DNA from: Planctomycetota bacterium | Lineage (GTDB): Bacteria > Planctomycetota > Phycisphaerae > WQYP01 | Assembly: GCA_021805985.1 (NCBI GenBank) | Contig: JAJZDN010000016.1 | Location: forward strand, 1-64,000 | Reading direction: 5' to 3' | DNA: 64,000 nucleotides | Shown: piece by piece, positions 4,203 to 16,398 of the stretch | Layout of the letters: every line of letters starts with the position of its first letter | Numbering within the stretch: position 1 is the stretch's first letter | The notes under the pieces: model-generated | What the model was told of the DNA's origin: nothing | The model's input: the letters and a program-made list of their open reading frames with translations, nothing else | The model's database searches: none | Position numbers and translations under genes: made by a program

Positions 4203-5522
4203 GTGACATTGCCCGCACAATCAGACAAGTCCTCAGCGTTGCCTTCCGTTGGCACGCCGCAGCCACAGAACTCGGCGTTAAATCCACAGGCGTCGGTGCC
4301 GCGATTGGCTTTGTGGAAGATGCTGCTGCTGGTGGCCGGGCCGGGGCTGGTGGTCATGCTGGCGGACACGGACGCCGGAAGCGTGATTACCGCTGCCCAA
4401 AGCGGGGCACAATTCGGCTATAGTCTGTTGCTTTTGCAAGTTTTGCTCGTGCCGATTCTTTACATCGTGCAGGAGCTTACCGTCCGTCTGGGGTTGGCTA
4501 CCCAAAAAGGCCACGGAGAACTGATTTCTGCCACTTTTGGTAAAGCGTGGGCCTGGTTGTCGGTTTCCACTTTAATGGTTTCGTGTATTGGCGCGCTATT
4601 AACTGAATTTGCGGGCATTGAAGGCGTGGGGCAGCTTTTTGGGATTGCGCCATGGATCAGTGTCGGACTGACCATTGTTTTTCTGGTCGTGGTCGTCGGT
4701 ACCGGTGGGTACCGGCAGGTGGAAATGGTCGCACTGTTTATTGGACTTTTTGAGTTAGCGTTTATTGCAGTGGCGGTAGCGTCTCATCCGTCGCCTGCAG
4801 CCATGATAACCGCGATCGGCAGCCAGCCGATTCATGATCCCACCTATTTGTTTTTAATTGCCGGAAATGTCGGCGCGGTCATTATGCCTTGGATGGTTTT
4901 CTATCAGCAATCTGCCGTGATCGACAAAGGTCTGAATATTACCCACCTGAAAGCTGCACGCCTTGACACCGCAATTGGAGCGTTGATAACGCAGATCATC
5001 ATGGCGGCGGTTTTGATATTTACAGCCGCCAGCATCGGAAGCGCCCATGCGCATGTATCGCTTAATACCGTGCAACAAATTGCCACAGCGTTAACACCGA
5101 TTCTGGGAAGCGCGTGGGGCCGTTTAGTATTCTCGCTGGGGATGTTGGGAGCGGCACTGGTGGCCACCATCGTGGCATCCCTAACCGCCGCGTGGGGATT
5201 AGGTGAAGTGACCGGGTACAGGCGGTCCCTGGCGCACCATCCGTTTGAAGCGCCTTGGTTTTACGGGGTATATTTAACCTGCCTGCTGGTGGGTGCGGGC
5301 ATTGTGCTTTCGGGCGTGAATCTGGTGCGGCTGACCGTGGCGGTGGAAGTCATGAACGCCTTGCTGCTGCCGATTGTATTAGGCTTTCTTTTTCTGCTGG
5401 CAAGAAAAGCGTTACCGGAGCCTTGGCGACTCAAAGGGCCGTACGCCTGGGTGGTGGCATTTATTGTGATATTAACATCGGTCGTAGGAGTATATGCCGG
5501 AATTGCGGGCTTGTGGGGTTGA
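4203..5522 (+). CDS. NRAMP-family divalent metal transporter with altered metal site
   Basis: A 439-residue inner-membrane protein with about 11 hydrophobic segments. Residues 47-75 (AGPGLVVMLADTDAGS...) align with TM1 of NRAMP Mn2+/Fe2+ symporters, and the segment around 221-235 (GNVGAVIMPWMVF) with TM6. The canonical DPGN of TM1 reads DAGS at 57-60: the Asp is kept, Pro becomes Ala and the metal-ligand Asn becomes Ser. TM6 MPH reads MPW at 228-230: the Met is kept and the His lost. Metal transport is therefore likely, but substrate range and proton coupling may differ. Translation starts at GTG; an AAAGG lies close upstream, and a TATAAA box 9 bases before the GTG suggests a very short or absent leader. 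It appears monocistronic. Confidence 0.8.
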   Translation: MTLPAQSDKSSALPSVGTPQPQNSALNPQASVPRLALWKMLLLVAGPGLVVMLADTDAGSVITAAQSGAQFGYSLLLLQVLLVPILYIVQELTVRLGLATQKGHGELISATFGKAWAWLSVSTLMVSCIGALLTEFAGIEGVGQLFGIAPWISVGLTIVFLVVVVGTGGYRQVEMVALFIGLFELAFIAVAVASHPSPAAMITAIGSQPIHDPTYLFLIAGNVGAVIMPWMVFYQQSAVIDKGLNITHLKAARLDTAIGALITQIIMAAVLIFTAASIGSAHAHVSLNTVQQIATALTPILGSAWGRLVFSLGMLGAALVATIVASLTAAWGLGEVTGYRRSLAHHPFEAPWFYGVYLTCLLVGAGIVLSGVNLVRLTVAVEVMNALLLPIVLGFLFLLARKALPEPWRLKGPYAWVVAFIVILTSVVGVYAGIAGLWG

Positions 5523-8905: not shown

Positions 8906-9937
8906 TCACTTCATCATGCCGTTGTACTGATGCCCGGGATGCTCTTTAAGCATTCGCACCATCCGCAGGCCCTGGAGCTTGCCGGTTTTGGCATTAAATA
9001 CGAAGGCATATAGCCCGGGGTGTAATCCCATCGCCATCGCAGCGCGTCCCGGCATGAACATCGGGTGTGGCATCATGCGGTGGCCGCGCCGCCATGTTTG
9101 CTTAGTTTGCTGAAGATTTCTGTGGTGCATCGGGTGTTTGCTGCCAGTGTTAGCATGCCCAAGTCGACGGTGCTCCATGCCCATGTTTCCCATCATTCCC
9201 GGCATGGGATGATGCAGCATCCCAGGTTGGTGGGGAGTCATGGCAGGCATCGCGGTTAGAGCGCGAAGCGCCTTGGCTTGTGCCACCTTGCCTTTTACGT
9301 TGACTGCCAGGAGTTGCCATCCGTTCGCCAGAATCAGAGAATTTGGACTGTAGCCTATGCCACCGTGAATATTGGCGACATAGGGATGACTGTAATCAGG
9401 CAGATAAATAATTTGTAGTTCGTAAATGCTCTGAGGCGGGCCATTGGGGCGCATTCGGCCGGCCATCATAGGCATCGGGGGCCTGCGGCCAGCCATACGC
9501 GGGCCTTGGTGCATGGTGCCTTGCTGGCCATGGCTGGCCATCGTCTCGTGCATAGGGTGCTGTGCATGATCCGCATGGCGCGACATGCCGTTTGACGGGT
9601 TCTGGTCTTTGGAGCCTGCGTTTCCGCCCATACCGCTCATCGGCATACCATGGTGCGATTTATTCCACCGTGCGCCCGGCGGCATCATCGGCCCCTGTCC
9701 GGGTTTCATCGGCTGGCCCATGCCCGGTCGCCCGGCCATGGGCATCGCCGAGGCAGGCGTTGAGGGCATTTGGGTTACCCATAAATAGGGTTGAGGCTGA
9801 AAAAAACGTATCCCTGCAATCGCCGGATCATTCACCTGTGCCACGGACACGGGCCGGACCTGCACGGAAGCACAGCCTCCTACTAAGCCGCCCATTGTCA
9901 GAAGCGAAAAAAAACCGATGAACCGTCGCGCGTTCAT
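8906..9937 (-). CDS. Met/His-rich lipoprotein, possible metal binder
   Basis: A 343-residue predicted lipoprotein. The N-terminus MNARRFIGFFSLLTMGGLVGGCASVQ has a charged start, hydrophobic core and lipobox LVGGC. The mature part has two low-complexity stretches (about residues 60-160 and 225-310) full of Met, His, Gly and Pro, for example HPMHETMASHGQQGTMHQ and HHPMPGMMGNMGMEH. Between them lies an ordered segment (YELQIIYLPDYSHPYVANIHG), and the end (GLYAFVFNAKTGKLQGLRMVR) looks like a folded beta unit. Met/His-rich tracts are typical of periplasmic copper or silver binding proteins, which is the inferred role. Start ATG has CGGAG 8 bases upstream. No family is recognised. An open frame continues upstream to 10027 but lacks a signal. 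Confidence 0.7.
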   Translation of the reverse strand: MNARRFIGFFSLLTMGGLVGGCASVQVRPVSVAQVNDPAIAGIRFFQPQPYLWVTQMPSTPASAMPMAGRPGMGQPMKPGQGPMMPPGARWNKSHHGMPMSGMGGNAGSKDQNPSNGMSRHADHAQHPMHETMASHGQQGTMHQGPRMAGRRPPMPMMAGRMRPNGPPQSIYELQIIYLPDYSHPYVANIHGGIGYSPNSLILANGWQLLAVNVKGKVAQAKALRALTAMPAMTPHQPGMLHHPMPGMMGNMGMEHRRLGHANTGSKHPMHHRNLQQTKQTWRRGHRMMPHPMFMPGRAAMAMGLHPGLYAFVFNAKTGKLQGLRMVRMLKEHPGHQYNGMMK

Positions 9938-10226
9938 AGACAATACTCCGAAAAAAATATAACCCACCCCGTTGGCTCCCCGAATTCTATGATAGGCACC
10001 TAAGCCCGGGAAATCCAATACATGCAAATTTCACATGGATTAATGTTTTCTGGCTATCTTTTCGTTCCGGAACATCGTGAAAATGAATATGATCCGAGAT
10101 TAGGAGAAAGCTAAAAGACCCCAGCCTCCCTGCACCCCAGTCGCTTTATACATTGGCGTTCCGGCGTTATAGTTCCACTTTCGGCCAATGGGTGCCGGTT
10201 GTTGCGTTGTTGCAGGAGCAATTGAA

Positions 10227-10887: not shown

Positions 10888-11940
10888 ATGCCCTTTTCAG
10901 CGCTACAGGCAGCCGAATGGTGCGGCGGGAAAATTGAAGGTATGCCCGGGCAATTATTCGATTCCATGGAATCCGTGGAATGGGCCCAGGCCAATCAGAT
11001 GACCTTCATTGGAACCGCAGCCTACGGCCGAAAGTTTGACCAATGCCCGGCGGGCGGAGCCGTATGCCGCGAAGGCCTGGCCGTTCCGCGCCGCGCGGAT
11101 CAAACGCTTATTATGGTACCTGATGCGGACTTGGCGGTAGCGGAAATTCTTGGAAAACTCGCCCCGCCGGCACCGTTTCCACCCCTTGGAGTTCATGCCA
11201 CAGCCATTATTGCAGATACCGTGACACTGGGAGCTGGTGTCCGCATCGGCCCCTATTGCGTGGTGCAGGCAGGAGCGAGCATCGGGGATCACACGGTGTT
11301 GATGGCCCAGAGTTTTGTGGGCCGCGAGGCACGGATCGGGCAGGAATGTGTCATCTGGCCGCAGGTGGTGGTGCGGGATGGGTGTCGAATTGGCAATCGG
11401 GTGATTCTGCATTCGGGCTGCGTGATTGGAGCGGATGGCTTCGGGTACCGTTTTGCGGAATCCCGGCATGTGAAGATTCCGCAAATCGGCGGTGTGATCA
11501 TCGAAGATGATTGCGAGCTAGGTGCCAATACCACCGTTGATCGTGCCAAATTTTCCAATACGATCATCGGGCAGGGAAGCAAACTGGATAATTTGGTGCA
11601 GGTGGGCCATAATGTGCGGCTTGGAAAGCACACGATTCTCGTGGCGCATGTCGGCATCGGAGGATCGGTTCAGGCCGGAGATTACCTGGCCGTAGGTGGC
11701 GGCTCAATAGTAGGCGATCACCTCCGTATCGGTGCTGGAGCGCAGGTGGCGGCATTTTCCGCTGCCGCATTCGATATGGCCGACGGCGATCGCGTGGTTG
11801 GAGCGCCCGCCCGTGCGGGAAAACAATATTTTTCGGAACTGCGCGCGTTGCACAAGCTGCCGGCGCTGGTGCAGAAGATTCAGCAGCTTGAGCAACGGAT
11901 AACAGAGCTTGAATCCTCCACAAAAAACAATAGTCAATGA
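10888..11940 (+). CDS. lpxD: UDP-3-O-acylglucosamine N-acyltransferase
   Basis: A 350-residue enzyme for the third step of lipid A synthesis, transferring a 3-hydroxyacyl chain from ACP to the 2-amino group of UDP-3-O-acylglucosamine. The N-terminal uridine-binding domain (about 1-105) is followed by a left-handed beta helix of hexapeptide repeats (about 105-290) with GADGFGYRF and VQVGHNVRLGKHT, which carries the catalytic His. The C-terminal part is a helix (VQKIQQLEQRITELE). Length is normal. Start ATG with CGGAG about 7 bases upstream. Its 3' end overlaps the start of lpxC-fabZ by 32 bases, indicating translational coupling. Confidence 0.93.
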   Translation: MPFSALQAAEWCGGKIEGMPGQLFDSMESVEWAQANQMTFIGTAAYGRKFDQCPAGGAVCREGLAVPRRADQTLIMVPDADLAVAEILGKLAPPAPFPPLGVHATAIIADTVTLGAGVRIGPYCVVQAGASIGDHTVLMAQSFVGREARIGQECVIWPQVVVRDGCRIGNRVILHSGCVIGADGFGYRFAESRHVKIPQIGGVIIEDDCELGANTTVDRAKFSNTIIGQGSKLDNLVQVGHNVRLGKHTILVAHVGIGGSVQAGDYLAVGGGSIVGDHLRIGAGAQVAAFSAAAFDMADGDRVVGAPARAGKQYFSELRALHKLPALVQKIQQLEQRITELESSTKNNSQ

Positions 11941-13219
11941 AACGGTGGTATCCGGCCGGGGGCTATTTACCGGTGAACCTGCAACGCTGACATTTAAGCC
12001 CGCGCCGGCGGGCCATGGCGTGGTGTTTGTACGCAGTGACCTGGATCGGCCGGTGCGAATTCCCGCGTTGGTTCAGCAGATTACCAAGCGAACCCGCCGC
12101 AGCACCATACGCAATGGTGCGGATTCGGTGGAAACCATTGAACATTGCATGTCCGCGATCCATGGCCTGGGCATTGATAATATTGAAGTCAACATTTCCG
12201 GCGGGGAAGTCCCCGGCGTGGACGGCTCCTGCCTGCCATTTGTCCAGGCCCTGCAAAGCGCCGGCATTGTTGAACAATCCGCGGAAAAACAATTTCTCCG
12301 TATCAGCGAGCCGGTGGAAGTCACCGATGGCACATCCACTCTGATAGCCTCGCCGGCGGCGGGTGATGAATTTCAGATGATTTTTGACCTGGACTATGGT
12401 GCCAATACCCCCATCGGCCATCAGTTGTTTTCCTACACACTGGGCGATGATTTCTCCGACGTAATCGCCCCGGCCCGCACGTTTGTGCTCAAACACGAGG
12501 CCGACATGCTGCGCCAGCGGGGACTGGGTTTGCACTTGCAGCCCGGGGATGTACTGGTCATTGATAACGACGGGCCGATCGCCACGAAGTATCGCTTTCC
12601 GGATGAATGCGTGCGGCACAAAATTCTCGATATGATCGGGGATTTGTATCTGCTGGGCTGCTCGATTCGCGGGAAAATTATCGCGTATAAATCCGGTCAT
12701 TCGCTGAATCATGCTCTGGTGCGGAAATTGGTGTCCATGCTTCAGGCGCAGCGTCATTCCGCGTTAAGTATCCGCGGGCCTGTGATGGATATCAAACAGA
12801 TTACCCGCATATTGCCGCACCGTTTTCCCATGCTGCTGGTGGACCGTGTGATCGAAATGGATTCCAATAATCACGCCGTGGGAATAAAAAATGTCAGCAT
12901 GAATGAGCCGTTTTTTCAGGGACATTATCCTGGCGCGCCGGTCATGCCGGGCGTACTGATTGTCGAGGCCATGGCGCAGCTTTCGGGATTGCTTCTGGCC
13001 CGGCAACTGGAGCACAGCGGAAAGCTGCCCATGCTGCTTTCCATGGATAAAGTTAAATTGCGACGCCCTGTGGTACCGGGAGACCAGTTAATTCTGGAAT
13101 CCGAAACCATTCGCGTAAAGGCCCGCACCGGGCATGTAAAATGCCGGGCGATGGTTGGTGATCAGTTGGCCGCTGAGGCCGTGCTGAAGTTCATGCTCGT
13201 TGATGAGTCGCAAACATAA
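11909..13219 (+). CDS. lpxC-fabZ: Bifunctional LpxC deacetylase / FabZ dehydratase
   Basis: A 436-residue fusion. Residues 1-285 are LpxC, the zinc deacetylase that commits UDP-3-O-acyl-GlcNAc to lipid A. The zinc ligands are visible as ETIEHCM (His79) and VRHKILDMIGDLYLLG (His237, Asp241), with the catalytic SGHSLNHAL (His264). Residues about 292-436 are FabZ, 3-hydroxyacyl-ACP dehydratase, with ILPHRFPMLLVDRV and GHYPGAPVMPGVLIVEAMAQ (His339, Glu353). Both use 3-hydroxyacyl-ACP chemistry. The frame opens at a TTG inside lpxD; the needed N-terminus (QKTIVNETVVSGRGLFTGEP) lies just after it, so the TTG is the only nearby start that keeps it. Such fusions are known from Bacteroidota and relatives and from some Planctomycetota. 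Confidence 0.93.
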   Translation: MNPPQKTIVNETVVSGRGLFTGEPATLTFKPAPAGHGVVFVRSDLDRPVRIPALVQQITKRTRRSTIRNGADSVETIEHCMSAIHGLGIDNIEVNISGGEVPGVDGSCLPFVQALQSAGIVEQSAEKQFLRISEPVEVTDGTSTLIASPAAGDEFQMIFDLDYGANTPIGHQLFSYTLGDDFSDVIAPARTFVLKHEADMLRQRGLGLHLQPGDVLVIDNDGPIATKYRFPDECVRHKILDMIGDLYLLGCSIRGKIIAYKSGHSLNHALVRKLVSMLQAQRHSALSIRGPVMDIKQITRILPHRFPMLLVDRVIEMDSNNHAVGIKNVSMNEPFFQGHYPGAPVMPGVLIVEAMAQLSGLLLARQLEHSGKLPMLLSMDKVKLRRPVVPGDQLILESETIRVKARTGHVKCRAMVGDQLAAEAVLKFMLVDESQT

Positions 13220-15652: not shown

Positions 15653-15997
15653 GTGCGTACGCTCAATGATCTAGCATTGAAGGATAATGATTTATGCGCG
15701 GTCCGGGAAGCCTCAGCCATTTTACGATCTCTGTTCCCGGTGCAAAAAGTTATCCTGTTCGGGTCAAAGGCCAGGAGCTCTGATGACGACCAATCGGATA
15801 TAGATTTACTTGTCCTGACCAGCCGAGCAGTGGAACAGTCGGAAAAAGACAGTATGACCGATGCCTTATTTGACATCGAGCTTCAACGCGCGGTGGTACT
15901 TAACAAATTGGTTGTGCCCTTGGAACAATGGGAGCATGGGCTTTACCGGGTGCTTCCAATTCACACCGAAATTGAGAGAGACGGAGCGATGGCATGA
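15653..15997 (+). CDS. MNT-type nucleotidyltransferase (antitoxin of MNT-HEPN pair)
   Basis: A 114-residue minimal nucleotidyltransferase. Residues 37-55 (LFGSKARSSDDDQSDIDLLV) contain the GSxxR and SDIDLLV motifs that bind metal and nucleotide; a third acidic residue is plausible in ALFDIELQRA. MNT proteins paired with HEPN toxins neutralise them, in studied cases by adding AMP to the toxin. Start GTG with GGGAGG 6 bases upstream. The 3' end overlaps the HEPN gene by four bases (ATGA), so the two are co-translated. The antitoxin role is inferred from the pairing. Confidence 0.85.
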   Translation: MRTLNDLALKDNDLCAVREASAILRSLFPVQKVILFGSKARSSDDDQSDIDLLVLTSRAVEQSEKDSMTDALFDIELQRAVVLNKLVVPLEQWEHGLYRVLPIHTEIERDGAMA

Positions 15998-16398
15998 ACG
16001 ATCAGGAGGCTCGCAAAGCGGTAGCGGAGGGATGGATTCAAAAAGCCAACACGGCCCTCGTGGCTGCTAGCAGAGACTACGCTGCGGGGGATATGGCGTT
16101 GGCCATTAACAGAATTTACTACGCCTGCTTTTACTCCGCCAGTGCGGTTCTGCTGAATGAAAATCGTCAGTTCAGCAAACATGCCGGTGTGCGGGCGGCC
16201 GTGCATCAGCATCTGATAAACAGTAATCGCCTTGCGGTGCAATGGGGACAGTTTTACGATCAGGCGTTTGAAGACCGACAGGAAGCGGACTACCAGGCTT
16301 TGACAATTTTTGAACCGGATCGTGTACTGCATCGGATTCAACAGGCAGATGAATTCCTCGCGGAAATGCAGAAGCTTTTTCAGACCGGAGGAAGATAA
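15994..16398 (+). CDS. HEPN-domain protein (probable toxin of MNT-HEPN pair)
   Basis: A 134-residue all-helical HEPN protein of the UPF0332-like group. Seen: AINRIYYACFYSASAVLL (helix 2), NRQFSKHAGVRAAVHQHL and EDRQEADYQAL. The RX4-6H ribonuclease motif of HEPN toxins can be read in RQFSKH, but it is not at the RNxxxHxY position of HepT-type toxins, so nuclease activity is uncertain. It overlaps the MNT gene by four bases. The stop at 16398 is only 17 bases from the stop of the oppositely oriented RND gene. The alternative is a nucleotide-binding accessory protein without toxicity. Confidence 0.8.
   Translation: MNDQEARKAVAEGWIQKANTALVAASRDYAAGDMALAINRIYYACFYSASAVLLNENRQFSKHAGVRAAVHQHLINSNRLAVQWGQFYDQAFEDRQEADYQALTIFEPDRVLHRIQQADEFLAEMQKLFQTGGR

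Follow-up and report, generated by a model that had tools for sequence, protein, structure and literature searches.

The window analysed here, a stretch of 64,000 nucleotides, carries on its minus strand an open reading frame (ORF) that spans positions 8906-9937 exactly, stop codon included, and encodes 343 aa from an ATG start. Its product is a Met/His-rich lipoprotein in which two low-complexity tracts lie within an ordered core. The features of the locus are:

8906..9937, minus strand: CDS of the 343-aa Met/His-rich lipoprotein P0001 (ORF call and orthologues)
10001..10026, minus strand: degenerate copy of a two-box upstream element, TGCATG-N16-CTTA (upstream comparison)
9946..9949, minus strand: GGAG ribosome-binding site, 9-12 bases before the ATG (sequence)
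9872..9937, minus strand: signal peptide and lipobox, residues 1-22, LVGGC, Ala at +2 (sequence, orthologue alignment)
9767..9871, minus strand: N part of the ordered core, residues 23-57, PVSVAQ...RFFQPQPYLWVTQM (alignments)
9428..9766, minus strand: tract 1, 113 aa with 18 M, 8 H, 11 K+R, and 3 D+E; a variable loop of the scaffold
9248..9427, minus strand: middle part of the ordered core, residues 171-230, LQIIYLPDYSHPYVA...NGWQLLAVN (alignments)
9053..9247, minus strand: tract 2, 65 aa with 12 M, 10 H, 8 K+R, and 1 D+E; a variable loop of the scaffold
8930..9052, minus strand: C part of the ordered core, residues 296-336, AMAMGLHPGLYAFVFNAKTGKLQGL (alignments)

The initial annotation had described a lipoprotein with a clear lipobox, and this was confirmed: the lipobox reads LVGGC with the Cys at residue 22, and G20, G21, and C22 are invariant in the alignment of the tract-bearing orthologues. 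A GGAG at most 15 bases upstream of the start was also present in the 11 orthologues inspected. Cys22 is the only Cys of the window protein, and Cys beyond the lipobox are absent or rare in the orthologues. With a pI of 11.3 the mature window protein is strongly basic, as are the mature orthologues (pI 11.0-11.8 in 12/12; K+R 31-50 vs. D+E 6-21).

No family had been recognised at first reading, and Pfam and NCBIfam scans of the window protein likewise gave 0 matches. DUF1737, DUF454, and further Pfam matches were all below the cut-off and were disregarded. AlphaFold2 predictions reached a mean pLDDT of 42.5 for the window protein and 47.9 for the shortest orthologue, too poor to show either a fold or disorder of the tracts. 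Sequence searches of the PDB returned nothing credible (best E 0.11), and in the open-licence literature no paper was recognised as describing this lipoprotein.

Composition of the tracts

Together, 40 Met and 23 His make up 18.4% of the residues of the window protein. The M+H share is 23% in tract 1 and 34% in tract 2 vs. 5% in the N and middle parts of the core and 17% in its C part, which bears out the two Met/His-rich low-complexity tracts around an ordered core that had been proposed. The protein was ranked among 243 mechanically called ORFs of at least 150 aa, drawn from the window plus 23 stretches of its genome; an 8-kb overlap between two of these stretches means that a few ORFs were counted twice. 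Its best 60-residue segment holds 21 M+H, the runner-up ORF 12, and the median is 6. Only one short tandem repeat (10 bp x 1.9) was found in the DNA of the gene region.

The motifs of the HPM and MHxxM type that had been pointed out hold in part. Counts were pooled over 12 related, non-independent orthologues, with expectations taken from composition shuffles. HPM was raised in both tracts, and PM was raised too. For tract 2, HxxM was modestly high (38 vs. 26.4 expected, z 2.9), MxxH was near expectation (25 vs. 26.7), and MxM and HxH were both low. For tract 1, neither MxxH (24 vs. 17.6 expected) nor HxxM (15 vs. 17.6 expected) went beyond composition, and MxH was low (9 vs. 18.1 expected). 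Beyond composition, the named metal motifs are weakly marked.

A separate property of the tracts is that the dipeptide His-Met is strongly avoided, with 0 vs. 18 expected in tract 1 and 4 vs. 27 in tract 2. Over both tracts of the 12 orthologues (9053-9766 in the window), 4 were seen vs. about 45 expected from composition; Met-His is not avoided.

Orthologues and selection on the tracts

The search for orthologues that the initial annotation had called for was carried out on 61 genomes (the window's own and 60 relatives down to class) and was productive. Matches were found in 15 of the 61, all among the 28 genomes of the same taxonomic family, and in 0/33 of the others. A full or near-full gene is present in 13 genomes from four genera of that family, and two genomes (G006 and G007) hold fragments only. 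In the sister genome G006 (L014, 300-650), only the gene start and the last ~33 codons remain with the upstream element intact, which reflects either a deletion within the gene or an error of assembly. A single-protein search of genome contigs with the window protein gave no match, and no relative was found in the viral contigs searched.

The alignment of the 13 sequences displayed invariant core residues in PYL-VT, LQIIYLPD, NS-L-ANGW, and PGLY. Tract lengths vary widely (69-146 aa for tract 1 and 27-100 aa for tract 2), and the tract composition is maintained across the four genera despite differing sequences. In 12 within-genus pairs, dN/dS was 0.17-0.33 for the tracts and 0.05-0.11 for the core, figures that are rough since dS exceeded 1 in 5/6 pairs of genera g1 and g4.

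Met was the best retained residue of the tracts in the three genera compared, both by protein alignment (0.94, 0.81, and 0.70) and by DNA alignment (0.93, 0.77, and 0.65), in a ranking limited to residues with at least 20 observations and with an aligner that may favour Met-Met pairs. Retention of His (0.76, 0.49, and 0.49) was no better than that of Pro (0.85, 0.64, and 0.61) or Gly (0.83, 0.52, and 0.61), and Arg and Lys were retained less than Met in all three genera. Since Met is the best retained residue and His is ordinary, the conserved feature is not a His/Met chelating motif.

A wider scaffold without tracts

Running a profile of the 13 orthologues added weaker matches in six genomes from other families of the class (21/298 genomes in total). 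Four of these are small lipoproteins with the same core and two (L040 and L041) are longer with other insertions; none of the six has the Met/His tracts. A profile built from the four small tract-less homologues matched 12/294 genomes of the phylum. One of the 12 is the window's own genome, where the profile recovered two segments of the window protein (E 3.9e-9 and 5.3e-6). The window protein has the lipobox and the core blocks in the same order, both in the profile match and in the alignment of scaffold members (A4). The scaffold reads GxRYYxPxPYLL...IYLPDxxxxY...LxNGWxL, and the core of the window protein is homologous to it.

Beyond the Planctomycetota, plasmid pColt5.8a of the alphaproteobacterium Rhizobium rhizogenes encodes a member, the 167-aa hypothetical protein WP_201010206.1, which hhalign matched to the combined profile with 99.1% probability (E 4e-19, 151 columns). 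Its gene (L071, 2791-3294) adjoins genes for a tyrosinase-family protein and two serine proteases.

The best 60 residues hold 17-30 M+H in 12/12 family orthologues vs. 0-6 in 17/17 homologues from outside the family, and the alignment places short or unrelated linkers at the tract positions of the other scaffold members. With tracts in 12/12 orthologues of the family and 0/17 outside it, this lineage has added them to a lipoprotein scaffold of broader distribution. As judged from these alignments, the protein is no free-standing new type, and its core belongs to that broader scaffold, which has no name. The profile search suggested at first reading found homologues without Met/His tracts and recognised no structural family.

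Homology of the LANGWxL segment of the core to NifT/FixU was set aside, not disproved. Sub-cut-off matches to NifT/FixU appeared in 2/18 scaffold members, in both Pfam and NCBIfam, and the NifT structure 2jn4 gave E 0.11; in an hhalign comparison with a single NifT sequence, no more than 8 columns were aligned, and these are not the LANGWxL segment. No cupredoxin Pfam domain was found in the 18 scaffold members scanned at E 1.

Upstream element

The CsoR operator has a consensus of the form TACCCC-GGGGTA. A perfect copy (TACCCC-N3-GGGGTA, 0 mismatches) precedes the csoR-copA operon of the window's own genome, which encodes a Trns_repr_metal protein and a P-type ATPase with YHS and HMBD domains. 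TACCCC-N0-8-GGGGTA was found within 2 mismatches in 0/13 lipoprotein upstreams (200 bases each), and a palindrome of this type at 3 mismatches in 4/13. Control of the lipoprotein by CsoR is unsupported, since no operator lies within 2 mismatches in the 13 upstreams.

Another element was found in 11/13 orthologue upstreams, 70-102 bases before the start: TG[ACT]AAC-N16-[CAG]GT, with CGT as the second box in 8/13. The two upstreams lacking the pattern are those of the window itself, which has the degenerate copy listed above, and of L055. In 1000 shuffles of the upstream set the element occurred 0.06 times on average and at most twice, a figure that overstates its significance because the pattern was chosen post hoc and the species are related; among 85 further ORFs called mechanically at these loci, it preceded 1. 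The SigW promoter is TGAAAC-N16,17-CGTA (PMC2375139), and the Brucella BcrS sites, which precede the gene of the Met-rich BcrX, begin with TGTAAC (PMC8315932). Going by this resemblance, the element conserved before the lipoprotein gene looks like one of the ECF type.

A looser form of the element had 14 sites in the window's own genome vs. 9 in the reversed control, so it does not serve as a general promoter in this genome. When five genomes were searched with the strict pattern, 21 sites were found vs. 9 in the reversed control; of the 21, 4 lie before the lipoprotein gene and 4 before marR. Two of the other 13 were inspected, and neither precedes a recognisable shared gene.

The four genomes with the strict pattern before marR belong to genus g2, and in them an HlyD-type gene follows marR. 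Genes for marR, macA, the macB ATPase, the macB permease, and an outer-membrane factor follow one another in G008 (genus g2, supported by Pfam) and G004 (genus g1). A search for marR-like genes gave 23 matches in 16/28 genomes, and upstreams were read for the best 11 of the 23. TGCAAC-N16-CGT was present upstream of 8 among these best 11; TGT replaces CGT at one locus (L139), the spacing is TGCAAC-N18-CGT at the locus of the window's own genome (L136), and one locus has no element (L140). The element appears common to the lipoprotein gene and to a marR-macAB-outer-membrane-factor operon, and its reader may be an ECF sigma factor or MarR.

In the window's own genome (L153, G000:C75, 2015-4363), marR is followed after a short gap by the outer-membrane factor, and macAB was not seen between them. 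This genome combines a marR operon in which macAB was not seen with a degenerate lipoprotein element; it is one genome, and perhaps a coincidence.

Genomic neighbourhood

By eye, the gene surroundings differ between genera. Pfam recognised no copper or silver families in 9 ORFs near the window gene, nor in 19 neighbouring ORFs (a subset of the neighbours) at 12 orthologue loci. Neighbours in the window encode UPF0102 (YraN), an epimerase, a thioredoxin-like protein, an Nramp transporter (4203-5522), OmpH, LpxD, and an LpxC-FabZ-type fusion. Orthologues lie near genes for a glycosyltransferase, an oxidoreductase, a phosphoribosyltransferase, a CLC channel (L046), a desaturase, TauE (L047 and L048), an integrase, GcpE, a CoA-binding DNA-binding protein, and NADH dehydrogenase, among others.

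Two further arrangements of the window were recorded. At 11909-13219, an LpxC domain is fused to a FabA/FabZ-like domain after OmpH and LpxD, in a lipid A cluster. At 15653-16398, a nucleotidyltransferase and a HEPN gene form a pair with the layout of an MNT-HEPN toxin-antitoxin system.

The window's own genome carries csoR-copA and a CusABC-like RND operon. CopA-type ATPases matched in 27/28 genomes and RND genes in 28/28, with or without the lipoprotein; as they are near-universal in the genomes searched, their presence gives no special support for a metal role.

Discussion

Lipoproteins of E. coli with Ala or Ser at position +2 go to the outer membrane, and Ala/Ser at +2 here predicts the same location. 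Met thioethers bind soft metals without deprotonation, while His and Cys are protonated in acid. We tentatively regard as the best explanation a lipid-anchored envelope protein whose Met-dominated tracts would trap soft metals and whose expression would be of the ECF type under stress. In the periplasm, the tracts may be disordered and offer many thioether sites that trap Cu(I) and Ag(I). Expression may come from a putative envelope-stress promoter of the ECF type common to the marR-macAB efflux operon, and the trap would operate next to the copA and cus-type exporters that the genome encodes separately. Such a Met trap would keep working in an acidic periplasm, and this would explain why Met is conserved over His and why Cys is absent or rare. 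The more specific proposal, a Met-thioether Cu(I)/Ag(I) buffer for an acidic periplasm, anchored in the outer membrane and built in one planctomycete family from the scaffold and Met-rich cationic loops, under ECF-type rather than copper-sensor control by a promoter common to the marR-macAB operon, is rather unlikely as a whole.

In favour of a metal role stand the M+H outlier, the distribution of the tracts, the retention of Met, dN/dS, the HPM and HxxM counts, and the co-enrichment of His. Against it stand the pI of 11.0-11.8, which is unusual for a cation trap, the absence of a CsoR operator, the lack of recognised copper or silver neighbours, and a His that is not preferentially retained. 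Moreover, tract 1 shows no enrichment of MxxH or HxxM and a low count of MxH, and tract 2 has few MxM and HxH.

The upstream element also fits a second explanation, which counts against the metal role. Methionines in the envelope may serve as a sacrificial sink that is oxidised by reactive chlorine or oxygen species and induced by an ECF sigma factor, as is described for Azospira MrpX and has been proposed for Brucella BcrX. The Brucella gene bcrX encodes an ECF-controlled Met-rich peptide, found with MsrPQ (PMC8315932). Like MrpX and BcrX, the lipoprotein is Met-rich, basic, and exported, with an ECF-like upstream element (the two-box form in 11/13 upstreams, resembling the SigW and BcrS sites), and Met is retained above other residues while His is not. 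Unlike them, it is larger, lipidated, and also His-rich, an enrichment that a sink leaves unexplained, and MxKD is found in 0/12 orthologues. The usual repair partner MsrP also argues against a sink: it was over the cut-off in 2/28 genomes (G009 and G016, which are 53% and 81% complete), neither with a lipoprotein match, and in 0/7 lipoprotein carriers among the 28 genomes searched (7 of the 13 carriers were covered). In the window's genome, MsrP gave only a sub-cut-off match (78 of 207 bits). The 8 MsrB proteins inspected by eye had no evident signal peptide, and this limited MsrP and MsrB search found no exported Met-sulfoxide repair enzyme. We consider an oxidant sink unlikely and less probable than a metal trap; if it is right after all, the lipoprotein would be an MrpX-like sink that lacks the customary MsrP, an unusual case too.

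The strong positive charge, present in 12/12 orthologues, could instead point to a cationic envelope layer, whose basic tracts would either attach to lipopolysaccharide, peptidoglycan, or polyphosphate or keep protons and cations away, with Met providing flexible hydrophobicity. However, a role of charge would not predict Met as the most retained residue of the tracts, and Arg and Lys fall below Met in all three genera; this explanation seems improbable. Least probable of all are non-adaptive loop insertions from replication slippage tolerated in free loops: the variable tract lengths, the variability of both loops throughout the scaffold family, and the sister genome left with two gene ends would suit them, but the tract dN/dS in the 12 pairs, the retention of Met, the composition maintained over four genera despite sequence divergence, and a window gene with almost no tandem repeat speak against them.

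We return to a stress-expressed Met sink, for which we infer that soft metals (Cu(I)/Ag(I)) are somewhat likelier targets than oxidants. The initial annotation had proposed a copper/silver sponge as a new protein type; a soft-metal sponge stands as the single most likely reading, and the new protein type gives way to a wider scaffold. SilE and PcoE, periplasmic Met/His sponges for Ag+ and Cu (PMC5008109, PMC7558416), set a precedent. The lipoprotein resembles them in being Met/His-rich and exported, with HxxM somewhat enriched in tract 2. It differs in its lipid anchor, in two tracts within a scaffold and no evident SilE motif repeats, in the lack of a recognised metal operon of the sil/pco type, and in the conservation of Met rather than His. 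CopI, a cupredoxin-like protein, has an internal His/Met-rich stretch that binds copper (PMC13308877). Both proteins carry a His/Met-rich segment within a larger envelope protein, but the scaffold described here has no cupredoxin match, far longer tracts, and no recognised copA linkage.

The scaffold of a lipoprotein into which Met-rich, sponge-like sequence has been built is a variant of the known sponge theme. If the metal reading is true, it would represent another route to a periplasmic metal buffer, in which sponge-like loops were grafted onto an existing lipoprotein and Met works where acid would disable His and Cys. A single upstream element would also link this unnamed family of lipoproteins with a marR-macAB efflux operon.
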